DNA of 64,000 bases from Niabella beijingensis (GTDB taxonomy: Bacteria > Bacteroidota > Bacteroidia > Chitinophagales > Chitinophagaceae): contig NZ_JAIQDI010000002.1 in the NCBI RefSeq assembly GCF_020034665.1, positions 806,001-870,000 of the forward strand, read 5' to 3'. Under the pieces are notes generated by a model. The model saw only the letters and a program-made list of their open reading frames with translations, had not been told where the DNA came from and ran no database searches. Below, piece after piece: positions 29,345 through 41,946 of this stretch. How positions within the stretch are numbered: the first letter of the stretch is position 1; the number at the start of each line of letters is the position of its first letter. The position numbers and the translations under genes are program-made.

Positions 29345-30859
29345 ATGGAGAATACGACCATTAACGGCTATAAACTAAAGTACAAATTAGGGGAAGGAGG
29401 CATGGCCGCTATCTGGTATGCAGAAAATTACCTGCAAAAGCCAGCAGCGGTAAAAGTGCTGCAACAACGTTTTTGCGAAATGCCGGAGATCGTAAGCCGC
29501 TTTGAAAACGAGGCGAAGCTGATGGTACACCTGAATCATCCGCATATCCGCAATATCTATGATTATTCCACGGTGGACGGGTGCCCCTGTATGCTCATGG
29601 AATACCTCGAAGGGAAGGACCTCTCGCAACGGATGAAAGACGGGGAAAAATTTTCCAACCTGCAACTGGTCCAGTGGTGGAACGATCTGGTGGATGCGCT
29701 CCAGTACACGCACCGGAAAAATATCATTCACCGGGATATCAAACCGTCCAATCTTTTTCTTACAGAAGAGGGTAAAATCAAAATACTTGATTTTGGAATT
29801 GCCAAGCTCCGGGATAATGTGACGGTAACACAAACCGGCTCCCGCATGGGAACACTGATGTATATGAGCCCGGAGCAGGTATATGACGTAAAGACGCTTA
29901 CCTATAAAACGGATATCTACTCACTGGCCGTTACCTTCTATCATCTTGTCAGCGGTAATGCTCCTTATGATGCTTCCAGGATATCGGATTTTGAGATCCA
30001 GGAGAACATCGTACGTAAAAATATTGATACCAGCGTGCTTCCGGAGCCCTGGAAGGGGTTGCTGGCGCTGTACCTGGCAAAGAACCCTGAAGACCGCAAG
30101 GAGCTGCGCCGGATCGATGCACAGGCTACAAAAGCAGATGAAACGATCGTCTTTACCCCTGTGCCGCCGCAACCCATCGAGACCATCTACCCGCCGTTAT
30201 CGACACATCCTGCCCAACGGACAGGATCCAATCGTTTCGGATATATTTTCCTGGTGTTTTTTATCGTTGCGGGGCTCGTCGTTTTTGCATTGAACAAAGA
30301 AGAGATCCTGTCCCTTTTCGGTGTTAACGGGGAGAAGAAGCCTCCGGTGGAGAAGCCGGTAACCCGTCCGTCTTCCCGTAAACAGGCGCCCAAACAACCG
30401 GCTGAAGAAATGCCGGCGGATACCACGGACGCAAAAAATGACACCATGACCTCAACGCAGGTGGTCACCAGCGAAGACCTTGGGATGAAGAAAGCAACGC
30501 TTAAAAACCAGATCAACGATTACTACCGGATGCGGCAGGATTGCGGCAGTTTGTCGCGTTTCTTCCGGGATACCGTGCAGCAATACTATAACCGGTCGAA
30601 TGAAGTGCTGACCCGGATACAAAAAGAATGTGCGGCCTATCATGGAAAATGGCGCTTCACAGAAGCGGATATCACCAGCTCTTCCTATGTGTTCACCTTT
30701 AATCCGAACGGGAATACTTATGTAGACTTTAGCATGCTGTACAAGATAAAACAGAATGAAGGAGATGACTGGATCCCCTACAATATTGATGTTTCAATGG
30801 TTTTTGATAGCGATATGAAGATTACCCGGATTGTGGAGCGCAGGATCGAAAAATTATAA
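29345..30859 (+). CDS. Transmembrane Ser/Thr protein kinase (PknB-like)
   Basis: A 504-residue Hanks-type kinase. Residues 9-250 form the kinase domain: glycine loop LGEGGMAA (15-22), Lys37, helix-C Glu56, HRD at 129-131 (an RD kinase needing loop phosphorylation), DFG at 149-151, and MSPEQ at 174-178. A proline-rich juxtamembrane part leads to one membrane helix (about 299-317). Residues 320-504 would be outside the cytoplasm; they are Pro/Lys-rich and then a folded-looking module (NQINDYYRMRQDCGSLSRFF...). This is not a PASTA repeat, so the sensed signal must differ from that of PknB. It is the first gene of the operon with PP2C, FHA and SEDS-PBP proteins. Confidence 0.93.
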   Translation: MENTTINGYKLKYKLGEGGMAAIWYAENYLQKPAAVKVLQQRFCEMPEIVSRFENEAKLMVHLNHPHIRNIYDYSTVDGCPCMLMEYLEGKDLSQRMKDGEKFSNLQLVQWWNDLVDALQYTHRKNIIHRDIKPSNLFLTEEGKIKILDFGIAKLRDNVTVTQTGSRMGTLMYMSPEQVYDVKTLTYKTDIYSLAVTFYHLVSGNAPYDASRISDFEIQENIVRKNIDTSVLPEPWKGLLALYLAKNPEDRKELRRIDAQATKADETIVFTPVPPQPIETIYPPLSTHPAQRTGSNRFGYIFLVFFIVAGLVVFALNKEEILSLFGVNGEKKPPVEKPVTRPSSRKQAPKQPAEEMPADTTDAKNDTMTSTQVVTSEDLGMKKATLKNQINDYYRMRQDCGSLSRFFRDTVQQYYNRSNEVLTRIQKECAAYHGKWRFTEADITSSSYVFTFNPNGNTYVDFSMLYKIKQNEGDDWIPYNIDVSMVFDSDMKITRIVERRIEKL

Positions 30860-30925
30860 AAGGAACAGCCGGATGAACGTACCGGGGGAAGAGAGGGTTA
30901 AAATAATAAATTTCAAATTGAAAAT

Positions 30926-31873
30926 ATGTTTGACAGATTAAAAAAGTGGTTATTGCCGGATGAGGAAGAAGAAGAGGAACTGCGGCTGACCAATCAGGCG
31001 CTGGTAGATCAGGTACTGGTTTCCTTTAAAGAGACGGTGGAGCGGGAATCCTTTAACCGGCGGATGATGTACGACTGCAGCTACCTCATCCTCATGCGGC
31101 CGGAGGATTACCGGCACGCAGAGCTGCGACTGGCGGGCATTACCGAGGGGATCCTCGACGAATTTTATGATTATATCAATCAGCGCAAAGAGCAGTATCC
31201 CCGCTATGAACCGATCGGCAGCTTCTGGGATTTCCAGTATTGTCCCGCAGAACGGGGGGTTGATAACAGTGAAATTGAACCGGGGACGATCCAGGTAGTG
31301 AGCACACCGACTTCTGAGAAATCCTGGTCGGAGCTCTCATCCGAACACATTAAGGTATCGGTAAGCAGCAAACATTCCAAGTATTCAAAATATGATCTGA
31401 ACCCCACCACTTTTGCAAACATTGATATCCTTTCCAAAGGACATTTCCGGGTAAAGTTCCGCCGGGAATTCCTGGGCGATTTTACCACGCAGCAGGCGGC
31501 TCCCGCGGGTTCGCGGAACAGTGCGCCGGCGGATAAGCTGGCTACGATCCAGTTTGTGCTGAACAAACAACGGTACAGTTTCCCCATGCGTGAAAAACAA
31601 CTGAAGATCACCAAGGAGATCGACGGGATGACCAGTACGGCAACCTTGCTGTGTATCAATGAACCGAGCGGAAGCCTGCAGAAAGAACATGTGATGATCA
31701 AATATGAAGAAGCTGCCCGGGCATTCTACATCGCGCTGTTTGCCGACGCATTTGTAAACGAGCAAAAGCTGGAGCTGAGCAGGGTAGGTGAAAATCCCGT
31801 ATGGCACCCGCTGAAGAATGAATCCACCATTGTCTGTGGAATTTTTCAGCTGGATTTTAAAGGGACGGTTTAA
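30926..31873 (+). CDS. FhaA-like protein: DUF3662-like N-terminus and divergent FHA-like C-terminus
   Basis: A 315-residue cytoplasmic protein. The start is MFDRLKKWLL plus an acidic run. Residues about 40-130 (MYDCSYLILMRPEDYRHAELR ... GITEGILDEFYDYINQ ... IEPGTIQVVST) resemble the DUF3662 domain at the N-terminus of actinobacterial FhaA. Residues about 200-315 have the strand rhythm of an FHA domain (LATIQFVLNKQRYSFPM ... KEIDGMTS ... KEHVMIKYE), but the usual GR and SxxH motifs are not clear. In mycobacteria FhaA recruits the phosphorylated peptidoglycan flippase MviN. The gene stands between kinase and phosphatase, so a scaffold role is inferred. This assignment is motif-by-eye only. Confidence 0.6.
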   Translation: MFDRLKKWLLPDEEEEEELRLTNQALVDQVLVSFKETVERESFNRRMMYDCSYLILMRPEDYRHAELRLAGITEGILDEFYDYINQRKEQYPRYEPIGSFWDFQYCPAERGVDNSEIEPGTIQVVSTPTSEKSWSELSSEHIKVSVSSKHSKYSKYDLNPTTFANIDILSKGHFRVKFRREFLGDFTTQQAAPAGSRNSAPADKLATIQFVLNKQRYSFPMREKQLKITKEIDGMTSTATLLCINEPSGSLQKEHVMIKYEEAARAFYIALFADAFVNEQKLELSRVGENPVWHPLKNESTIVCGIFQLDFKGTV

Positions 31874-31901
31874 ATCATGGCGCAACAAAAATAAATAGCG
31901 T

Positions 31902-31970
31902 ATGCTGGGTAGTGCAATGCTGGTATTTATTGTCCTGGTATTTCTGTTACAATCTAAAACGAAATCATGA
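31902..31970 (+). CDS. 22-residue single-helix membrane peptide
   Basis: The frame encodes 22 residues. Positions 5-16 (AMLVFIVLVFLL) are one strong hydrophobic helix, followed by a short basic tail (QSKTKS). Its TGA overlaps the ATG of the phosphatase gene as ATGA at 31967-31970, the classic sign of translational coupling. It starts 28 bp after the FhaA-like gene, so it fills the gap exactly. It is too short for routine gene callers. It could be a membrane regulator of the kinase or of the wall synthase, or a coupling leader. It may of course be chance; the overlap and composition argue otherwise. Confidence 0.5.
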   Translation: MLGSAMLVFIVLVFLLQSKTKS

Positions 31971-33094
31971 GCAGGAAGATCGTTTTATACGGGCAAACAG
32001 ATGTAGGACGCAGACGGGAGGAGAATGAAGATAACTTCATTGCGCTTTCGGCGCTCTGGAATGCACCCGCGCGTGCGCTCATCGGCGCCATTGACGGTGT
32101 GGGCGGCTACGAGGGCGGGGCGGAAGCAGCAGCGATCGCAAAAGAGACCATCGAACATTATTTGCAGAATTTCAGTTTTGGCGCACCGCTGCAGCTGCTG
32201 AAAGAAGCAGCTATTGCCGCCAACAACCGGATCGTTGAGCAACGAAGAACCAATGAAGCACTGAACCGTATGAGTTGTGTGATGTCGGTTGCTGTGCTGG
32301 ATGCCGATAAGGAAATGATGTATGTGGCGCATGTGGGCGACAGCCGGGGGTATGTATTCCGTAACGGGAACATGCTGAAAATAACCCGCGATCATTCTGC
32401 TGTGGGAATGAAAGAAGACAGCGGATATCTTACCGAGGCAGAGGCGATGCAACATCCGCGCAGAAATGAGATCAGCAAAATGGCCGGGGAACTTTTCCTT
32501 GATGCGGATGACTCTGATAATTATTTCGACAGCATTGAACACAGTTTTCTGCCCGGAGATATTGCGCTGTTTTGTTCCGACGGATTAACAGACCTGGTTA
32601 CACAGGCACAGATGGTACAGTTGCTGTCAGCCCCCGGTACCTTACAGCAAAAAACGCAGCAGCTGATCGATGCCGCCAATGAACTGGGAGGAAAAGATAA
32701 TATTACCGTAGTACTGGCTTCCTATGCTGCCCCGAAAAAGCCGGGGCGTAAGAAAGGATCAAAAACAGCGATCGAAGTTCCGATTACTGAAGCCCCACCT
32801 TCATCTGATGAAATTATGACTGAAATAAATACGCGCTCCTCCAAAAAAAAAATAGCGGTGCTTCCGGTTATCATCGCGTTCGTCGTTGGATTTCTGGCTA
32901 ACTGGCCGGGAACAGGGTCGTTCTTTAGCGGGCAGGAGACACCGCCTGCGGTACTACCGGACACTACCGGGATACGGCCGGACAGTCTGCCCCTGACGGA
33001 CAGCGCCCATTTACAACATCTGGATACTTTAATCAATGCAACGGATACGATCTATCGCGACAGTATCCGGCGGAATGCATTGCAAGGCTACTAG
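31967..33094 (+). CDS. PP2C-type Ser/Thr phosphatase with C-terminal membrane anchor
   Basis: A 375-residue protein, the counterpart of actinobacterial PstP. Catalytic domain about 1-255: VGRRREENEDNF (13-24), metal-binding IDGVGGYEGG (Asp43), VGDSRGYVF (Asp125), LFCSDGLTDL (Asp205) and GGKDNITVV (Asp244). A Lys/Pro-rich linker is followed by a membrane helix at 296-313 and about 60 outer residues rich in Pro, Thr and Asp. It would reverse the phosphorylation set by the flanking kinases. It starts inside the stop of the 22-residue peptide and ends 3 bp before the SEDS-PBP gene, so all three are co-translated in effect. Confidence 0.95.
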   Translation: MSRKIVLYGQTDVGRRREENEDNFIALSALWNAPARALIGAIDGVGGYEGGAEAAAIAKETIEHYLQNFSFGAPLQLLKEAAIAANNRIVEQRRTNEALNRMSCVMSVAVLDADKEMMYVAHVGDSRGYVFRNGNMLKITRDHSAVGMKEDSGYLTEAEAMQHPRRNEISKMAGELFLDADDSDNYFDSIEHSFLPGDIALFCSDGLTDLVTQAQMVQLLSAPGTLQQKTQQLIDAANELGGKDNITVVLASYAAPKKPGRKKGSKTAIEVPITEAPPSSDEIMTEINTRSSKKKIAVLPVIIAFVVGFLANWPGTGSFFSGQETPPAVLPDTTGIRPDSLPLTDSAHLQHLDTLINATDTIYRDSIRRNALQGY

Positions 33095-33097
33095 CAC

Positions 33098-36000
33098 ATG
33101 AAGAAAAAAATAGTTTTATATCCCCGGAGAACCGAACGTATTCTTTTACTCGGTGCCACCCTGCTGCTGGGCATTATGGCATTTCAATATTACCAGAACA
33201 GGAAGGCGGATTTTATCAATACGGACTATGGGTATGAAAGCGGTAAAGTGATCAACCTGGCTGCGCCGGTTCAGGCGGCTACCCTGCAGCAGCTCTTTGC
33301 AAAAGGTGGCTATTTTACGGATGAGGCGTATATCCGTTTTATTGCGGGAAAGATCAAAACGCTTGTTGAAAAGGAAAGGGTGCTGCCCAACCTGGGGGCA
33401 TTGAACAAAAACAGCCTGATGATCCCTGCAACGGATTTTCTGAATACTTCCAGTCCTTCGGGTAAACTCCGTTTTTTAAATGCCATTACGCAACTGGATA
33501 TGGACAGTGCCCTGTATGATCAGGAATTGAAAAACCCGGTAGCCTATCCGGATGAAGTGGCCGTTCAGAACACAAAAACAAGACTGTCCATTCATGGCAA
33601 GGTCCGCCTGGGCGTCTCCGACAGCAGCGAAGGAGGTGCCGCAAAAGGAGTGCTGGTAAAACTTACGGAGATCTTTCCTTCCAATTATTATGATACCCTG
33701 AGTACAAAAGCCGCTGATGCACCGGCAGAGTTCCTGGCCCGGACAAATGAGAACGGCGCCTATGAATTCTATAACCTGAAAGAACACAGCAACTACCGGG
33801 TAACGGCCATGAAGCCCGGATATGATTTCGGTGGCGCCAAAGGCATCGCAGCAATGGATAATGATCAGACCTTCAACTTTTCGGGAAAGCCGCATCTGAT
33901 AAGGCTGCTGGACCGGACGGAGTTCCGGCAGATCAAAAATGACAAGATCTTTACCGTGCGTACGCCAGCCGATTTTAAGAAAGAATACATCACCAATCTG
34001 GTATTATTCGTGCTGGCGTTCTGGGCCTTTCACTTTATTCTGTGGCTAAAGAATTACCGGAGCGATCAGTTCATCCTGCCGTTGCTGTTTTTCCTTTCGG
34101 GTACGGGGATCATGGCACTTTACAGCATGCAGGACCCGCTGCGCGATATTATCCACGGAAGCGGTATGGCAAAATGTGCAGCCGGTGTATTATTGTTTGC
34201 AGCGGTTGTATTGTTCTTTTTAAAGGACAGGGCCGTGATGCGTTTTTATCATTCCCGGTGGTTCGATCCCGTGTATGCGTTACTGCCCGGGGCGGGCGGG
34301 TTAAAAGCGCCCCGCGGCTATTCCTGGATGCTGTTGTCTATCGCACTGATGTTGCTGCTGGCCTTTATCGGTACCGGTCCGGAAGGGAGTGGTGTGAAAG
34401 TGAACCTGTTCGGGTTCCAGGTAAGCGAATTGTCCAAATTCTTAATGATCGTTTTTTTTGCGGCTTACTTCGCGGTGAATTCCGATTACTTCAGGAATAT
34501 CCCGGACAACCGCTGGCTGACGCGCAATAACCTGAAGATGCTGCTGCTGTTCGTTTTCCTGCTGGCGGTTTATGCGGCCCTGGGGGATCTGGGGCCTGCG
34601 ATCGTGCTTTGTCTCACCTTTCTGTTCTTCTATTCATTTGCAAAAGAAGAATTCTTTGCAATGGTGCTGGCTGCTGTTAGCTATGTGGTGCTGCTGACGA
34701 TCACTTCCCGGTTCATCAATGATGCCCGGCATGATTTTCTTCCCGGCCTGGCCACACTAGCCTGCGTGGGAACACTGGCATTCGCCTTTTTCAAAAAGCG
34801 GTACGAATCGGTGTTTTTTATCATTCTGATCATCTCTTCCTTTATCCTGCTGGCCACCCTGCCATTTGAGTTTACACAGCGGCTGGCCGACCGTAACGGA
34901 ATGTTCCGGAATATCTGGGAGAATAAGCTCATTGGCGGGGATCAGGTGGCGCACGGGATCTGGTCGCTGAATGCCGGAGGATTTTTCGGACAGGGCCTGG
35001 GGCAGGGTTATTCCAGTGTAATGCCCGCTTATCATACGGATATGATCCTGGAAAGCATCGGGGAGGAGTTGGGGATCACAGCACTGATCGCCCTTTTCCT
35101 GGCATTCGGATTACTGACCTATCGCTCCCTGCTCGCAGCGCGCAGAACGGGAAAGCCGTTTCTTTTCTACCTTGTGGCGGGTATCGCTATTGCCACTGTG
35201 CTGCAGTTTTTCCTGATCACGGCAGGTACCCTGGGATTGATCCCGCTTACAGGGATCTCAGTTCCGTTCCTCAGTAAGGGGAATGCGGGTATCATCATAA
35301 CGCTGGCTGCTTTTATTCTGGTGCTGATACTGTCGCATGAAAGGGGGGATGCGCTGGAAATGGAATACGTGAAAAAGAACTTTGATAATGTGAATGCCTA
35401 TGCGATCCTGAGCTTTTTTGCCGTGCTGATTTTTTATACCGGCACCCTGTTCTGGTACCAGTATAAATCGGATGAATATATTACAAAACCGTCCCTGGTG
35501 CTGAACCGTAAAGGTGCCTGGCAATACAGTTATAATCCACGCATCGGTATCTTCCTACGCGAGATCCGCTCGGGCAATATTTATGATAAGAACGGGGTAT
35601 TGCTGGCCACTTCCAGCAAAGCGACTTTTGACCAGTTTAAGAACAAGCTCATTCCTCTGGGGGCCAACCCGGTTCTGTATGCCGAACAACTGAAACGGGA
35701 GCAGCACCGGTATTATCCGTTCGGGGCGGACCTGCTGTTCTGGCTGGGCGACTACAATAAAGAGATCGCAAACGAAGAAGAAGCGGGTTATGCGGCCGAA
35801 TACCGCCATTACACCCTGCTGAAAGGATTTGATGTTACCTATACCACATCGCAGAAAACATCCGACCGCTACCGGGAAGCCCGGTTCCTGCCGGTTACCG
35901 AAAAGGAATCGGAGCTGGTGAAATATGATTACAGCGCATTGGCGCCGATTCTGAAGGAGGGTAAAAATGGCAAATGGGTAGAGCTGCAGAATAATAAGGA

Positions 36001-37144
36001 TAAGGACATCCGCCTGTCGCTGGACGTGGTGCTGAACCAGAAGATCAATGCGGTGATCCAGAATACCGCGGCATCCGGTCCGTTCCGGACTTCTGTGGTT
36101 GCGCTGAATGCAGCAACCGGTGATGTGCTCGCCTCAGCGTCCAATCCGGCACCTTCCTACAAGGATCTGAAGCTGATCAGCAATATCGACCCTTCCGATT
36201 ACCGTACGATCTTCCGGCAACTGTTCCAGGACCGGGTGGTCGTGCCCCAGGACCTGGGGATCACTTTCAATTCCAGGCCGGGATCAACGGTGAAAATCAT
36301 TGATGCCACTGCTGCCATGAACCAGTATGGCACTGCAGCCTCACAGTTCAGTTATTTTATTTATCCCGCAGAGGTGATCCATCAGGGTGAGCCGGTGAAC
36401 ATGAATGTGGATATGCGTACGGCCATCGTCCGCTCCAGCAATGTTTATTTTATCAAACTGGCCAACGATAAGAATTTGCAGACTTCCCTTTTTAACCTGT
36501 ATGATGCTTTGGGGATGAATATCCTGAACCGGGGTGGCTTTCATTTTCAGCGGCCGGAGGATTACGACAGCGAGCGTTATTTCAAAGAGTGGGGAACATT
36601 TGTTGCAAAAGGTAAGAGTATTTTTAACAGCCAGCGGCTGATGAATACACGGAGACGGCTGCAGTCGCCGTATTCCGACCTGGCCTGGGGGCAGGGCGAG
36701 CTGGCTGCAACACCGCTGCACCTGGCGCGTATGTCTGGTGTAATAGCCGATAGCGGCGTGCTGCAACCCTCCCGTTTCCTGTTTCAAAGCTGGAATAACA
36801 AATTGTCACTGCAAAAGGAACAGTCCATTACCAGTGAGCCCCGGATCGCGCCACTCATCGGTGAATTTATGAAAGAGCAATCCGCTAAGGTATCTGCCGC
36901 TTCGGGGTTGACGGTACATGGGAAAACGGGTAGTCCCGAACGCGATAAACTGATCCGGAAGGCAGACGGGAAAACCGCGCTGAAACGGGTCACGGACTCC
37001 TGGTATACATTTTTTGTAGCTTCGCCGAAGCTAAGGGCCCCGGTGGCTTTTACCATACGGATCGAAGAGATCGGAAATTCGGAATACGCAAAAACACTGG
37101 CGGTTGAACTATTGAAACAATTAAAATCGGCCGGGTATTTTTAG
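33098..37144 (+). CDS. Fused SEDS (RodA/FtsW) glycosyltransferase and class B PBP transpeptidase
   Basis: A single 1348-residue chain. Residues 12-28: first membrane helix. About 30-295: outer region with a carboxypeptidase-regulatory-like Ig fold (160-270). About 299-740: polytopic RodA/FtsW part, with FGFQVSE at 438-444, GGDQVAHGIW at 613-622, HTD at 646-648 in the position of the essential loop Asp, and the late motif GISVPFLSKGN. About 765-787: membrane helix of a class B PBP, then the pedestal motif IRSGNIYDKNGV (about 821-832). Transpeptidase: S1063-T-V-K1066, S1113-S-N1115, K1276-T-G1278, all three catalytic motifs present. Elsewhere these are two proteins (RodA-PBP2, FtsW-PBP3) that work as a complex, polymerising lipid II and cross-linking the strands. 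There is no frame break in the fusion. Confidence 0.93.
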   Translation: MKKKIVLYPRRTERILLLGATLLLGIMAFQYYQNRKADFINTDYGYESGKVINLAAPVQAATLQQLFAKGGYFTDEAYIRFIAGKIKTLVEKERVLPNLGALNKNSLMIPATDFLNTSSPSGKLRFLNAITQLDMDSALYDQELKNPVAYPDEVAVQNTKTRLSIHGKVRLGVSDSSEGGAAKGVLVKLTEIFPSNYYDTLSTKAADAPAEFLARTNENGAYEFYNLKEHSNYRVTAMKPGYDFGGAKGIAAMDNDQTFNFSGKPHLIRLLDRTEFRQIKNDKIFTVRTPADFKKEYITNLVLFVLAFWAFHFILWLKNYRSDQFILPLLFFLSGTGIMALYSMQDPLRDIIHGSGMAKCAAGVLLFAAVVLFFLKDRAVMRFYHSRWFDPVYALLPGAGGLKAPRGYSWMLLSIALMLLLAFIGTGPEGSGVKVNLFGFQVSELSKFLMIVFFAAYFAVNSDYFRNIPDNRWLTRNNLKMLLLFVFLLAVYAALGDLGPAIVLCLTFLFFYSFAKEEFFAMVLAAVSYVVLLTITSRFINDARHDFLPGLATLACVGTLAFAFFKKRYESVFFIILIISSFILLATLPFEFTQRLADRNGMFRNIWENKLIGGDQVAHGIWSLNAGGFFGQGLGQGYSSVMPAYHTDMILESIGEELGITALIALFLAFGLLTYRSLLAARRTGKPFLFYLVAGIAIATVLQFFLITAGTLGLIPLTGISVPFLSKGNAGIIITLAAFILVLILSHERGDALEMEYVKKNFDNVNAYAILSFFAVLIFYTGTLFWYQYKSDEYITKPSLVLNRKGAWQYSYNPRIGIFLREIRSGNIYDKNGVLLATSSKATFDQFKNKLIPLGANPVLYAEQLKREQHRYYPFGADLLFWLGDYNKEIANEEEAGYAAEYRHYTLLKGFDVTYTTSQKTSDRYREARFLPVTEKESELVKYDYSALAPILKEGKNGKWVELQNNKDKDIRLSLDVVLNQKINAVIQNTAASGPFRTSVVALNAATGDVLASASNPAPSYKDLKLISNIDPSDYRTIFRQLFQDRVVVPQDLGITFNSRPGSTVKIIDATAAMNQYGTAASQFSYFIYPAEVIHQGEPVNMNVDMRTAIVRSSNVYFIKLANDKNLQTSLFNLYDALGMNILNRGGFHFQRPEDYDSERYFKEWGTFVAKGKSIFNSQRLMNTRRRLQSPYSDLAWGQGELAATPLHLARMSGVIADSGVLQPSRFLFQSWNNKLSLQKEQSITSEPRIAPLIGEFMKEQSAKVSAASGLTVHGKTGSPERDKLIRKADGKTALKRVTDSWYTFFVASPKLRAPVAFTIRIEEIGNSEYAKTLAVELLKQLKSAGYF

Positions 37145-37166
37145 CTGTCAGCAATTAGCTGTCAGC
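37141..37166. repeat. Two direct copies of TTAGCTGTCAGC
   Basis: Copies lie at 37141-37152 and 37155-37166, the first overlapping the stop codon of the SEDS-PBP gene. A related partial copy (GGTAGCTGA) follows near 37182. The 74-bp gap holds no obvious terminator or promoter, so the operon may continue through it. Confidence 0.6.
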
Positions 37167-37218
37167 CCTTAGTTATCCGCCGGTAGCTGAAATAATAATT
37201 AACATTGAATCCAGTAAT

Positions 37219-38133
37219 ATGAATTGGTTTAAGAAAAAATTTGAACAGTTTTCGGAAAAGCTGAACGCCGATGATCCTTCTTTTGGTGAGGTGGAAAAAA
37301 AGGCAAGGGCCGCGGAAGAGGCTTCCGGAAAAAAAGTGGTACCGGTGGTACCGCCTGCTGCGCCGTCGTCGCCACGGGTGGATAATATCGAAGCGTTAAA
37401 GGAGATCACCCTGGGTGCCATCAGCAATACGGTGCGGATGCTGGGTTACAGCGCTACAAAAATTTCCGGCCTGGTATTTCATTCTGCGTATAAGGACAAT
37501 GCGATTGAGAATGTGGGCCTGATGAGCCTCGTTAAAGACCCGCAGTTCATCAGCCGCATCAAGCGCGAATTCCGGTCACGGGGCATCCAGTACCTGGAGC
37601 CCCTGAGCGTGGAAGTGATCCATGAATCGCCCGACACCGCCCGTGTTACGGCCATTACAGAAGGGATAGGGGTGGAAGTGCTGACACCGGGGGAATCACT
37701 GAGGAAACTGAAAGCCCGCGTAGTGGCCACTGAAGGCATCACCTGGGAGCAGGAGTATATCCTGGAACCCTCGGGCAAGCATTATTTTATCGGGAGGGGT
37801 AAGGATCCCAAAATTGAGAACGGTCCTAAAATTCACAACGACATCGCATTTGTGGGGATCGAAGAGCAAAACGAAGAACAATACAAGATCAACAATTTTA
37901 TCAGCCGCTCGCATGCCATGATCGTCTTCGACAAAGAGATCGGGGCCTATAAGATTTACCGCTCAAAATTCCTGAACAACCCCTCGCATAAGATCAAGAT
38001 CTTTAATGCATCGCTGGATGATTTTTCGGGGATCAGTCTGGGCAATGCAGCGGTGCCGCATGTTTTGAAGGACGGAGACAGCATTTGCTTTAATGATAAG
38101 ATCGTACTGGAATTTTTTCTGTTAACCCAATAA
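37219..38133 (+). CDS. FHA-domain protein
   Basis: A 304-residue cytoplasmic protein. It opens with a basic amphipathic helix (MNWFKKKFEQFSEKL), reminiscent of FhaA N-termini, then a Pro/Ala linker (40-52) and an uncharacterised alpha/beta region (55-175). Residues 183-303 are the FHA domain with IGRG (191-194), the phosphothreonine-binding SRSH at 229-232, and a long insert between strands. FHA domains bind phosphothreonine peptides, so it is a likely reader of the marks set by either kinase. It stands 8 bp before the kinase-FHA gene. No transmembrane segment is present. Confidence 0.9.
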   Translation: MNWFKKKFEQFSEKLNADDPSFGEVEKKARAAEEASGKKVVPVVPPAAPSSPRVDNIEALKEITLGAISNTVRMLGYSATKISGLVFHSAYKDNAIENVGLMSLVKDPQFISRIKREFRSRGIQYLEPLSVEVIHESPDTARVTAITEGIGVEVLTPGESLRKLKARVVATEGITWEQEYILEPSGKHYFIGRGKDPKIENGPKIHNDIAFVGIEEQNEEQYKINNFISRSHAMIVFDKEIGAYKIYRSKFLNNPSHKIKIFNASLDDFSGISLGNAAVPHVLKDGDSICFNDKIVLEFFLLTQ

Positions 38134-38141
38134 AAAGGAAC

Positions 38142-39506
38142 ATGCTGGAACTGGCATCGAAATATGATATTCTGAAGGTGATCGGTCACGGAGGTTTTTC
38201 TGCCGTATTCAAGGCGCGGAGCAAAGATGACCCGGAACACGTGGTGGCGCTGAAACAGCTGGATTTTGTGCTGGAAAACGAGGACGCCAAAGAATACCGG
38301 GATTTTAAGAATGAGGTAGAGATCCTGAAGCGGCTGGATCATCCGCATATTGTAAAGATCTACGAAGAATACATACTGGATAATAAACCCTCGCTTGAGA
38401 TGGAGTTTGTGGACGGCGAAACACTGGAAACCGTACTGCAACGCGAAGGCCCTTTTTCTGTGGATGACGCGCTGGATGTGATCGCCCAGATGGCTGCTGC
38501 ACTCAGCTATTGCCACCATTACCATACTTATGGCGCATCGCCCCGGCACCGGGTTTCCGATTCGGTGATCATCAACCGCAATGCCATTATCCATAACGAT
38601 ATCAACCCCAAGAATATCATCCGCTCCAAAATTGAGGACGGATCCTACCGCTACGTGCTTATCGATTTCGGTTTGTCTTTTGTGGATCCTGATGCCGTTA
38701 GGCACAGTAAGAAGGAAGACGGCATGGCCGAGTACAAGGCCCCGGAGAAATGGCGTGGTCAACTGGTGGATACGCCGTCGGATATTTACAGTCTGGGGAT
38801 CGTGATTTATGAATTGCTGACCGGCGGCGTCCCGTTTCCGGTAAAGGATTATAAGCAGGCCAATGAAATGATCGCGCTGGAAGAAAAACATAAAAGCGCT
38901 CCGGTGCCGGATATCTGTGAAAAACGGATCGAAGCCCTGGAGCAGAGAGAGGGACAGCGGCCGGATAGCTGCGACATTCCTGCGTGGCTGGAGCTGCTGG
39001 TGCTCCGGTGCCTGGAAAAGGATCCGTTGAAGCGTTTCAGAACAGGCAGGGAGCTGGCCCGGTTCTTTTACGACGGACTGGATGGTAAGATCGAGATCCC
39101 GGAGGAAGAAGCGGAAGTGATCGATATTGACCCCGCGGGTCCGGTAAAGAACGCCGGAGCCTACCTGGAAGTAGCCCCCAATATCCTTACCGAAGGACAG
39201 CACTTTTTTCTGAATAAGGACCTGGTTACCGTTGGCAGATGGAATGATCAGCCGGGCATGCCGGCCGATTTCAGCATCCGGACATCCGACCGGTTCATCT
39301 CTAAAAATCATTGCCAGGTTTTACGCCGGCGCAACACCGACGGGGAGTATACCTATTTTCTCCAGGACAAGGCTCCGAGTAAGAACGGGACCTTTTTCAA
39401 TACAGAAAAGAATTCCATACGTCTTTCCGACAGAACGGAAGTGGCATTAAAGGACGGCGACTATTTCTGGTTGGGAAATACAAAACTCATCTTTCATCAG
39501 GGCTAA
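38142..39506 (+). CDS. Ser/Thr kinase fused to a C-terminal FHA domain
   Basis: A 454-residue cytoplasmic protein with no membrane helix. Kinase domain 8-312: GHGGFSAVF loop (15-23), Lys38, catalytic loop HNDINPKN (151-158), DFG 175-177, APE 200-202. The catalytic loop has HND in place of HRD, so it is a non-RD kinase whose activation need not depend on loop phosphorylation. The FHA domain covers about 355-452 with VGRW (364-367), SKNH (387-390) and KNGTF (414-418), the full phosphothreonine pocket. It closes the operon. An FHA fused to a kinase suggests docking to substrates already phosphorylated by the first kinase, though this is inference. Confidence 0.93.
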   Translation: MLELASKYDILKVIGHGGFSAVFKARSKDDPEHVVALKQLDFVLENEDAKEYRDFKNEVEILKRLDHPHIVKIYEEYILDNKPSLEMEFVDGETLETVLQREGPFSVDDALDVIAQMAAALSYCHHYHTYGASPRHRVSDSVIINRNAIIHNDINPKNIIRSKIEDGSYRYVLIDFGLSFVDPDAVRHSKKEDGMAEYKAPEKWRGQLVDTPSDIYSLGIVIYELLTGGVPFPVKDYKQANEMIALEEKHKSAPVPDICEKRIEALEQREGQRPDSCDIPAWLELLVLRCLEKDPLKRFRTGRELARFFYDGLDGKIEIPEEEAEVIDIDPAGPVKNAGAYLEVAPNILTEGQHFFLNKDLVTVGRWNDQPGMPADFSIRTSDRFISKNHCQVLRRRNTDGEYTYFLQDKAPSKNGTFFNTEKNSIRLSDRTEVALKDGDYFWLGNTKLIFHQG

Positions 39507-39563: not shown

Positions 39564-39908
39564 TTACAGTTTATTCCCTTCTTTGGGGAAAACAATGGTT
39601 GGCTGGTGTTTTTTGGCTTCTTCAACGCTCATCATGGCATAGGAGATAATGATGACCGGGTCACCTACCTGGGCCTTGCGTGCAGCAGGTCCGTTGAGGC
39701 AAATGGTGCCGGAGCCTCTTTTGCCCTTGATCACATAGGTTTCCAGACGTTCGCCATTATTGACATTTACTACCTGAACCTTTTCATTCTCAAGGAGATT
39801 GGCCGCTTCCATCAGCGCTTCATCGATGGTGATGCTGCCCATATAATTGAGAAAGGCCTCTGTGACCACGGCTCTGTGGATCTTGGATTTAAAAACTTCA
39901 ATAAACAT
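39564..39908 (-). CDS. panD: Aspartate 1-decarboxylase
   Basis: A 114-residue pyruvoyl-dependent enzyme that makes beta-alanine from aspartate for pantothenate and CoA. The self-cleavage site is visible at Gly24-Ser25 (NYMGSITID), where Ser25 becomes the pyruvoyl group. [18 protein letters not shown] and [12 protein letters not shown] are family signatures. Length is normal. It converges on the kinase-FHA gene with a 57-bp gap that has no clear terminator. Confidence 0.97.
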
Positions 39909-40036: not shown

Positions 40037-40044
40037 TATATTTG
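40037..40044 (+). promoter_or_regulatory. Start-proximal -7 box (TATATTTG) of the LysM/SH3b gene
   Basis: Exact TAnnTTTG, ending 6 nt before the ATG at 40051. It also makes a TTG start at 40042 impossible in practice. Confidence 0.5.
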
Positions 40045-40050
40045 AAACTC

Positions 40051-41946
40051 ATGAAATCGTTTATTGTTACGGCAGGATTAATTCTACTACTGGGAACCGC
40101 CCAGGCGCAAAAAAGACTGACTGCAGTAGTTACTTCCAAAGGTACTGTTGTTGAGCATAAAGTTACCTCCGGGGAGTCGTTATTGTATCTAAGCAATAAG
40201 TACGGCATTTCCCTTTCAACACTTGCCAGGGCCAACGGATTGAAAACCAATCAGGATATACGGATTGGCCAGCTGATCCGGGTGCCGGTTACCGCTGCCA
40301 ACCTGAATACAAAATCAAGAAAAGGGATTCCGGTGTATTATGAAGCCGGTGCAAAGGATAACCTGACCACGATCAGCAGGAAATTTAACCGGGTTGACAT
40401 CAAAACCCTGAAGTCCTGGAATAAACTGCGGAAAGACGTGGTTTCAAAGGGACAGGACCTGCTGGTGGGTTATATGACCGATAATGCAGCAAAAAAAGAA
40501 GAGGATAAAAAAGAGACCGCTGCCACAAATTCAGGAGCTGATATTAAAGCCGGTAAAAAAGTTACCGCAACCTCGGCCGTGAACATCCGCAAGGGTGCCG
40601 GTACCGATAAGGCGGTAGTAGGCACGGTTCAGAAGGACGAAGTGGTTACCGTTACACGCCGTGTAAACAGCGAGTGGGCCGAGATCCGCACAGCTGACGG
40701 AAAAAAAGGCTATATGGCTGCTCAGTTCCTTGAGCCGGCAGCTTCCCAGCCCGAAGAAGAGAAAAGTACTGCTAAAAGCGGTAGCGATCTGAAGGCGGGC
40801 ACGAAAGTAACTGTATCTTCAGCTGTAAATATCCGTAAGGGACCGGGCACCGACCAGCCGGTGGTGGGCCGGCTGGAAAAAGATGAAGTGGTTACTGTAA
40901 CGCGCCGGATAAATGATGAATGGACTGCGATCCGCACTGCTGATGGAAAAAAGGGCTATATGGCTTCCCAGTTTCTTGAAACAGCAGATCGTGCAGTAAC
41001 TGAAACGCGCGAAGTTCCAAAAACGGCAGCAGCAAAAAACTCCGGTAAAAAAGTAAAGGCAGCAACAGATACCTATATAAATATCCGCAAAGGTCCGGGC
41101 ACGGATCAGCCGGTGGTAGGGCAGGCACAGAAGGATGAACTGCTTACTTTGATCCGCCGGGTAAATGACGAATGGTCCGTTGTACGTACAGGCGATGGTA
41201 CCGAAGGCTATGCTGCCAGCCAGTATCTTGTTGATCCTTCCGTTGAACCGGCGCCGCCGGTGGCTAAAAAAGAACAGCCTGCAGCCCGGGCAGAAAAACA
41301 AATGGCGATTACAGGAACCGGCATCAACATCCGCAAAGGTCCGGGAACCAATGAACCGGTAGTGGGCAGGGCAGAAAGCAATGAAATCGTTACGGTAACC
41401 CGTGATGTAAATAGCGAATGGGCTGCAGTCCGCACCGGTGAAGGTGTTACGGGGTATATCGCTTCCCGCTTTTTAGGGCCGGTAGGCAGCAACAATGTTG
41501 CGGAAGCCGCGCCTGAAGAAACTGCTGTTGCCAAAACGGAATCCAAAAAACAACCCCGCACAAAAACTGAAGCGCCGGTCTCTTCTGCCCCGGTTGCTGA
41601 AACAGCGCCGCCTGCTGTAGGTTTTGATGAGAGCGGCTATTTTAAAACCGCATATGATACACAAACGGGGGCGGCTGCTACAAAAGACCGGTCGGTACAT
41701 GCAGGGGTGTTTAAAACAGACAAAGGCTGGGATGACGGGAAATACTACATGCTGATCGACGGGATCCCCTCCGGCACAATTGTAAAGCTGTCCAATCCCA
41801 ATGCCAACACTTCCGTGTATGCCAAAGTGCTGGGTGATATAAAAAGCCTGAAACAGAAAAAAGGACCGGCGGCACGTATCAGCGATGCGGCTGCAACAGC
41901 ATTACGCATCAATGCCGGCGATTTTGATGTGGTGGTAACCCATTAA
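40051..41946 (+). CDS. Secreted LysM protein with four SH3b repeats
   Basis: A 631-residue exported protein with signal peptide (ending AQAQ). One clear LysM domain (about 31-80, VEHKVTSGESLLYLSNKYGIS) is followed by a second LysM-like segment (about 90-145). Four bacterial SH3 domains follow at about 168-230, 250-312, 334-394 and 415-474, each with a VNIRKGPGT-type core. Linkers are Lys/Ala/Pro-rich. The C-terminal 100 residues resemble a weak double-psi barrel like RlpA (SVHAGVFKT ... AATALRINAGDFDVVV), without certain catalytic residues. LysM and SH3b both bind peptidoglycan, so it is a wall-binding protein near the wall-synthase operon. Enzyme activity is unproven. Confidence 0.88.
   Translation: MKSFIVTAGLILLLGTAQAQKRLTAVVTSKGTVVEHKVTSGESLLYLSNKYGISLSTLARANGLKTNQDIRIGQLIRVPVTAANLNTKSRKGIPVYYEAGAKDNLTTISRKFNRVDIKTLKSWNKLRKDVVSKGQDLLVGYMTDNAAKKEEDKKETAATNSGADIKAGKKVTATSAVNIRKGAGTDKAVVGTVQKDEVVTVTRRVNSEWAEIRTADGKKGYMAAQFLEPAASQPEEEKSTAKSGSDLKAGTKVTVSSAVNIRKGPGTDQPVVGRLEKDEVVTVTRRINDEWTAIRTADGKKGYMASQFLETADRAVTETREVPKTAAAKNSGKKVKAATDTYINIRKGPGTDQPVVGQAQKDELLTLIRRVNDEWSVVRTGDGTEGYAASQYLVDPSVEPAPPVAKKEQPAARAEKQMAITGTGINIRKGPGTNEPVVGRAESNEIVTVTRDVNSEWAAVRTGEGVTGYIASRFLGPVGSNNVAEAAPEETAVAKTESKKQPRTKTEAPVSSAPVAETAPPAVGFDESGYFKTAYDTQTGAAATKDRSVHAGVFKTDKGWDDGKYYMLIDGIPSGTIVKLSNPNANTSVYAKVLGDIKSLKQKKGPAARISDAAATALRINAGDFDVVVTH
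40550..41480 (+). repeat. Four tandem SH3b-coding repeats
   Basis: Copies of about 180-190 bp recur at roughly 40552, 40795, 41050 and 41299, with spacers of 60-90 bp. Copies 1 and 2 are the most alike, including GACGGAAAAAAAGGCTATATGGC-type ends. They are diverged at third positions, so they are old or under drift. The copy number could vary between strains. Confidence 0.8.

Follow-up and report, generated by a model that had tools for sequence, protein, structure and literature searches.

The window, a stretch of 64,000 nucleotides from Niabella beijingensis (contig NZ_JAIQDI010000002.1, positions 806,001 to 870,000), carries at 29345-39506 a set of seven genes, here called the module, that encodes Ser/Thr kinases (STK), a PP2C phosphatase, FHA-domain proteins and a peptidoglycan synthase. 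The module is a real, conserved gene set of Bacteroidota, kin, as far as its best-tested part shows, to the operon by which actinobacteria join kinases to wall synthesis, and new in its arrangement, which combines a synthase made of a SEDS polymerase fused to a penicillin-binding protein (PBP) with a conserved microprotein. Control of wall synthesis by Ser/Thr phosphorylation has, to our knowledge, been studied mostly in Gram-positive phyla, and a Gram-negative, patchily distributed version with fused polymerase and cross-linker would make such control testable beside the housekeeping enzymes and among few other Ser/Thr kinases. No description of this gene set in Bacteroidota was found among the titles and abstract openings listed from the open-licence PMC literature, and none of the terms Bacteroid-, Flavobacter-, RodA and Chloroflex- occurs in the main text of PMC6213207.

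All seven open reading frames (ORFs) lie on the + strand (Table 1) of a genome of 6.59 Mb in 3 contigs, at successive intergenic distances of 66, 28, -4, 3, 74 and 8 bases. The first-pass annotation of the window, which had described seven same-strand frames with short gaps or overlaps and had named them as a transmembrane kinase, an FhaA-like protein, a membrane peptide, a PP2C, a RodA-PBP fusion, an FHA protein and a kinase-FHA protein, holds in both respects, with gaps of 3-74 bp, one 4-bp overlap, and the six larger frames at the coordinates first reported. Matches above the Pfam cut-offs are Pkinase in STK1, PP2C in the phosphatase, FTSW_RODA and Transpeptidase in the synthase, and Pkinase and FHA in STK-FHA, while hydropathy places one transmembrane (TM) helix each in STK1 and PP2C and many in the synthase.

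Table 1. Genes of the module in the window (positions are those of the window; aa, amino acids)
Gene	Position	Strand	Description
STK1	29345..30859	+	504-aa membrane Ser/Thr kinase; Pfam Pkinase 9.3e-45
FhaA-like	30926..31873	+	315 aa; N-terminal FhaA_N-like domain and degenerate FHA domain
Microprotein	31902..31970	+	22 aa, single TM; its stop and the PP2C start overlap by 4 bases (ATGA)
PP2C phosphatase	31967..33094	+	375 aa, TM 296-314 near C-terminus; PF00481 1.1e-13
SEDS-PBP fusion	33098..37144	+	1348 aa; SEDS domain and PBP transpeptidase behind an N-terminal part; PF01098 2.2e-34, PF00905 5.9e-18
FHA2	37219..38133	+	304 aa; N-terminal domain without family and FHA domain keeping GR, SR motifs
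STK-FHA	38142..39506	+	454 aa; kinase and C-terminal FHA; Pkinase 3.2e-41, FHA 4.3e-9

In related genomes these genes stay together, which was the neighbourhood check that the first-pass annotation had proposed. When one genome of each species was scanned, 289 stretches matched, and the 80 best of them were read (a sample that leans to close relatives and shares some genomes with the family sample below); 67 of these loci, from 18 named genera plus others, were evaluable, having at least 6 kb upstream and at least 3 kb downstream of the synthase by which the loci had been retrieved. The order FhaA-like > PP2C > SEDS-PBP > FHA2, plus at least one kinase, is present in 65 of the 67, and the gap between PP2C and synthase has a median of 1 base over 53 adjacent pairs. 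In the family sample all 13 other genomes that encode the fusion have PP2C, FHA2 and one or more kinases beside it, and 12 have FhaA as well, the genome in which FhaA was not seen offering an 8.2-kb contig that starts at PP2C. A sample of the phylum yielded matches at 1e-20 in 169 of 395 genomes, mostly through frames resembling ordinary SEDS proteins, and 15 genomes with fusions (10 at E=0 and 5 at 7.7e-117 to 1.2e-131). In the synthase tree, a quick build carrying composition and long-branch warnings, three deep lineages correspond to three arrangements: the Niabella type begins with STK1 and ends with STK-FHA, the Niastella-Spirosoma type places one kinase or two after PP2C and ahead of the synthase, and the Segetibacter-Pedobacter-Mucilaginibacter type has kinases at one or both ends, assigned by match to an STK-FHA profile. 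The closest synthases in this tree are those of Niabella (87% identity to L059), and Chitinophagaceae occur in all three arrangements, which fits an old duplication or transfer. Module genes are broken into several ORFs in L064, L068 and L115, by damage or sequencing errors.

The actinobacterial fhaA-fhaB-pstP-rodA-pbpA-pknA-pknB operon is described as conserved, with knockdown arresting growth in M. smegmatis, in an excerpt of PMC6554272, and as highly conserved in Mycobacteriales in an excerpt of PMC11898655. The parallel to it that the first-pass annotation drew is sound, both sets containing an FhaA or FhaA-like protein (FhaA_N, putative in the module, with FHA), PP2C, RodA, a class B PBP and Pkn-type kinases in one direction, but the different order that it also claimed is not. 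Actinomyces oris (L161) and Tsukamurella (L162) have the order DUF3662-FHA, FHA, PP2C, RodA, PBP, STK, PASTA-STK (the Tsukamurella PP2C, missing from its gene table, was found by a module profile search), and the core order fhaA-pstP-rodA-pbp-kinase is the same in the window and in these two genomes; Nonomuraea has PP2C-RodA-PBP-STK-STK, and in the Niastella-Spirosoma arrangement the kinases precede the synthase. Unlike the actinobacterial operon, the module has RodA and PBP fused, a kinase in front, an extra FHA2 gene, no PASTA kinase, one kinase with an FHA domain of its own, an FhaA whose FHA is degenerate in Bacteroidia, a patchy presence and, in the position of FhaB (TM and FHA), an FHA-less TM microprotein (68 of 72 gaps). 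The clostridial FHA-RodA-PBP cluster of Monoglobus (L163) is alike in that FHA adjoins RodA and PBP and its RodA falls, on a long branch, on the module side of the SEDS tree; its enzymes, however, are separate, and neither PP2C nor kinase was seen in 16.9 kb, whether in the incomplete gene table or by module profiles.

The SEDS tree comprises 56 rows and is unrooted apart from a midpoint root, which gives no direction to any transfer; 14 rows were picked by length and name from 120 listed of 778 matches, and one of these, P0300, falls within the module clade. A 100/99 branch splits the module side (17 module rows, 4 actinobacterial, of which three are from the operon and one from a Streptomyces plasmid, 3 Chloroflexota-named, 1 clostridial FHA-linked, 1 Firmicutes-named and 10 others) from housekeeping SEDS proteins, the opposite side holding 17 Bacteroidota rows with Bacillus SpoVE, Klebsiella FtsW and Azospirillum RodA. 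In the approximately unbiased (AU) test, with groups named post hoc from the tree, joining the module (with P0300) to the Bacteroidota FtsW-like rows is rejected at p-AU 0.000124, and joining it to the RodA-like rows at 6.19e-8. A module SEDS profile matches actinobacterial rows at 1e-45 to 3e-56, Monoglobus at 5e-49 and Bacillus SpoVE at 1e-41, with Klebsiella FtsW (1e-37), the genome's own FtsW (1e-32) and its own RodA (3e-30) lower. Judged by sequence, then, the SEDS enzyme belongs with the RodA group of the operon. The tree, the FhaA_N matches described below and the shared core order together favour shared ancestry over convergence, which the first-pass annotation had offered as an alternative to transfer.

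The FhaA_N family (PF12401) matches 3 of 24 aligned FhaA-like proteins, one of them over the cut-off; the alignment consists of the window member, itself not matching, and 23 of 26 non-redundant relatives from 79 found. A profile of the FhaA-like N-terminal domain matched three actinobacterial FhaA N-termini at 2.8e-5 with a probability of 74% (reversed control 0.13), and subsets of the comparison gave 0.0013 and 0.0043. The idea that the N-terminal domain of FHA2 might also be FhaA_N found no support (E 0.13). FhaA-like and FHA2 are both modelled as C-terminal FHA folds, with mean pLDDT of 78.4 and 85.3, the FHA match of FHA2 in Pfam being sub-threshold only (E 0.12); in a PDB structure comparison of the two models the listed matches cover the C-terminal FHA parts, so that the N-terminal domains are barely probed. 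FHA motifs of the GR, SR and S[RK]xH type bind phosphothreonine. FHA2 keeps [IV]GR and [IV]SR in 25 of 25 aligned sequences, and the S[RK]xH motif of FhaA is found in 3 of 24, all three members from other classes, and in none of the 21 Bacteroidia members. The sole PF00498 match of the genome lies in the module. Two FHA2 proteins of other classes (L142:11435-12805 and L143:10479-11753) carry an N-terminal Swt1-like HEPN domain (PF18731, 1.5e-25 and 7.4e-22).

The frame that the first-pass annotation called a membrane peptide is a conserved microprotein, new here. There are 75 adjacent FhaA-PP2C pairs, and in the 72 whose gap is shorter than 400 bases an ORF was sought that has an ATG start, 15-45 codons and a hydrophobic core. 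Such an ORF was found in 68, as compared with a mean of 0.54 and a maximum of 3 in shuffled gaps (50 rounds), 3 of 72 on the antisense strand and 0 of 41 in the synthase-FHA2 gap; it was not found in the FhaA-PP2C gaps of L067, L069, L110 and L137, and under looser limits it appeared in all five other-class loci tried (L138, L140-L143). The ratio of nonsynonymous to synonymous differences per site (pN/pS) was taken for 50 of the 68 microproteins, those of equal length within three lineages (7, 21 and 22 sequences; 20, 210 and 230 pairs). As ratios of means, and with values uncorrected, pairs non-independent, pS high and pairs of very low pS dropped, the in-frame figures are 0.39, 0.37 and 0.42, against 0.95 and 1.72 when the reading frame is shifted in the third lineage. 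From the microprotein end to the called PP2C start the median is -4 (range -65 to 133). The microprotein is a candidate subunit of a type that gene calls can miss, and the gene table of the Spirosoma oryzicola plasmid, incomplete by design, lacks it. In actinobacteria its position is occupied by FhaB, which starts with a hydrophobic stretch; a kinship between the microprotein and the FhaB TM receives no support from sequence, a profile ranking three FhaB TMs 8th, 15th and 92nd of 124 and so failing to set them apart from other TMs.

The synthase carries SxxK at 1063, SxN at 1113, KTG at 1276 and HTD at 646-648, and S1063, K1066, S1113, N1115, K1276, G1278, H646, T647 and D648 are invariant in 14 aligned synthases. 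Its HTD aligns with the HTD of FtsW and RodA PDB chains, and on that alignment D648 would be the equivalent of RodA D262. The D262A exchange in RodA abolishes polymerisation, according to an excerpt of PMC6207328. For the PBP part the top PDB matches are MrdA (124.2 bits) and PbpA (122.0 bits). The fusion is proposed to polymerise and cross-link lipid II. Single-ORF SEDS-PBP fusions exist in nature, as an excerpt of PMC10449877 records, and likewise unite polymerase and transpeptidase; by comparison with what that excerpt covers, the fusion here lies inside a kinase-phosphatase-FHA set, has an N-terminal part of ~295 residues and is once also fused to PP2C, in a single 1384-aa ORF of PP2C, SEDS and PBP (L143:6262-10416). 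The PP2C itself has the conserved motifs and matches NCBIfam Stp1_PP2C_phos at 8.6e-54 and 182.5 bits, under the cut-off of 230; in a search of the genome that covered the phosphatase family PF13672 it is the sole match. In many of its relatives the TM is followed by a tail of ~100-200 residues, whose repeated pattern by eye resembles a beta-helix, the Niabella copies being shorter.

In STK1 the catalytic K, HRD and DFG are all present, and its closest PDB chains are StkP, then PknA. Against NCBIfam PknB_PASTA_kin it scores 1.1e-68 and 232.7 bits, under the cut-off of 450, and its TM at 298-316 is followed by ~188 residues without a PASTA match (Pfam, hydropathy). STK-FHA has the Lys and DFG, with HND replacing HRD; PknB heads its PDB matches, and hydropathy finds no TM. 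In Pfam neither module kinase matches PASTA, nor is there such a match at their genome position, which agrees with the first-pass remark that a PASTA sensor is lacking; the four PASTA matches of the genome lie outside kinases, in a 712-aa PBP ORF and a 309-aa ORF. Two of the genome's three Pkinase matches sit in the module. The third Pkinase ORF (L168:3616-4680) has as its two neighbours ORFs resembling HsdS and HsdR of type I restriction. Elsewhere the genome has two more SEDS ORFs (FtsW-like and RodA-like) and matches MreB strongly; its transpeptidase matches number 6.

The module is probably related to the FhaA-PstP-RodA-PbpA-PknA/B operon and is its counterpart in Bacteroidota, namely a kinase- and phosphatase-linked peptidoglycan synthase with an accessory third SEDS protein beside the FtsW-like and RodA-like ones. 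Evidence for this comes from the conserved order, the median 1-base gap between PP2C and synthase, the PP2C-SEDS-PBP ORF, the SEDS tree, the FhaA_N matches and the core order, and also from the presence here of the genome's only FHA and PF13672 matches and most of its Pkinase matches, the lack of common flanks, and the housekeeping FtsW, RodA and MreB elsewhere. Control of wall synthesis by the module through Thr phosphorylation, the 'same control logic' of the first-pass annotation, is the likeliest reading, and the co-transcription, phosphorylation targets, sensing, assembly and physiological role of the set are inferred. STK1 would sense an extracytoplasmic state and phosphorylate Thr on module proteins; FHA2 and STK-FHA would bind these phosphothreonines and gather at the membrane, with FhaA, its FHA devoid of phosphopeptide motifs in Bacteroidia, as a putative scaffold; PP2C would reset the phosphorylation state. 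The output may be activation or placement of the fused polymerase and cross-linker, and the microprotein could act as a membrane component that is almost always present and is produced together with PP2C and synthase. More tentatively, the module may be a mobile, self-contained third peptidoglycan system switched by Thr phosphorylation, in which a microprotein of 21-36 residues regulates or tethers PP2C and SEDS-PBP, perhaps as what is left of an FhaB anchor after its FHA was lost or moved to FHA2, a version that we consider possible but somewhat doubtful.

Several observations weigh against kinship with the operon. Presence is patchy, the fusion occurring in 14 of 147 genomes of the family, own included, and in the two exceptions among the 67 evaluable loci, L075 (Spirosoma endophyticum) and L080 (a record named Flavobacterium), the synthase lacks FhaA, PP2C and kinase within 8 kb, the FHA2 of L080 lying 7.6 kb from it. 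The window FhaA-like protein, taken alone, has no Pfam or NCBIfam match; the PDB phosphatases 5iti and 2j82 (~202 bits) outscore Stp1 (160.5) and PstP (157.5) on the PP2C profile; general and PDB SEDS profiles, in lists without actinobacterial RodA, place the synthase nearer FtsW than RodA; and the PBP tree (18 rows, two long) does not resolve the nearest PBPs. Six loci were read from four families or genomes of other classes. L142 has FhaA-PP2C-synthase-FHA2 and L143 has FhaA, the fused PP2C-SEDS-PBP ORF and FHA2; in L138, L140 and L141 the set is FhaA-synthase-FHA2, and no PP2C was found in the stretch read; L139 is a second copy of the synthase, with part of a kinase where the contig ends, and has FhaA, PP2C and FHA2 absent from view. 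A kinase is thus seen in one of the six (L139), within the stretches read, so that the kinase part is not constant there unless kinases lie elsewhere, and for this reason our confidence in kinship with the operon, good before, was lowered slightly. In L142 the ORF upstream of FhaA (L142:3072-5342) has SLT transglycosylase and LysM repeat matches.

Patchy presence and the lack of widely common flanks would also suit a cassette for anti-phage defence or conflict, working by kinase-FHA-phosphatase logic with the wall synthase as effector, as would the Swt1-type HEPN on FHA2 in L142 and L143 and a copy on a plasmid. The latter, FHA-PP2C-STK-STK-synthase-FHA on the 136,743-bp plasmid of Spirosoma oryzicola (L146), is the sole match at 1e-10 among 72,556 plasmid records. 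Clustering of the flanks, in which families were clustered and not named, found no family common to more than 30 of the 80 loci, and the single printed example of the largest cluster (30 of 80) reads like a sensor kinase. Such a cassette is nevertheless unlikely: PADLOC families match the kinases alone (PD-T4-6, mad6, MkoA and Stk2 among the 25 listed of 35 and the 25 listed of 33), FhaA, PP2C, SEDS-PBP and FHA2 have no PADLOC match at 0.01, the same clustering shows no defence family shared by a majority of the 80 flanks, and the SEDS protein groups with the RodA of the actinobacterial wall operon.

Assembly by convergence within Bacteroidota, through capture of a duplicated FtsW or RodA by a kinase-phosphatase set, is likewise improbable, given that the AU test rejects a clade of the module with either the FtsW-like or the RodA-like rows of Bacteroidota and that the core order is common with actinobacteria and FhaA_N matches exist. 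It draws some support from a PBP tree without resolution, from single-domain trees that cover SEDS and PBP among the module parts, and from a PP2C to which PstP is less close than other phosphatases of solved structure. STK, PP2C and FHA also occur together in the phosphorylation pathway of type VI secretion (PpkA-PppA-Fha type), and STK-FHA has a weak TagH match (25.1 bits, cut-off 120.25); however, the genome has no VipB (PF05943) match, and a pathway of this kind is very improbable. The presence of the synthase provides no test here, since it was the means by which the loci were retrieved.

Downstream of the module, on the same strand, window positions 40042-41946 encode a protein in which LysM-like and repeated SH3-like segments can be made out by eye, relatives of which are close to the module in 6 of the 80 loci, five of the six named Niabella. 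Between the two, at 39564-39908 on the - strand, is a gene that reads as panD-like.

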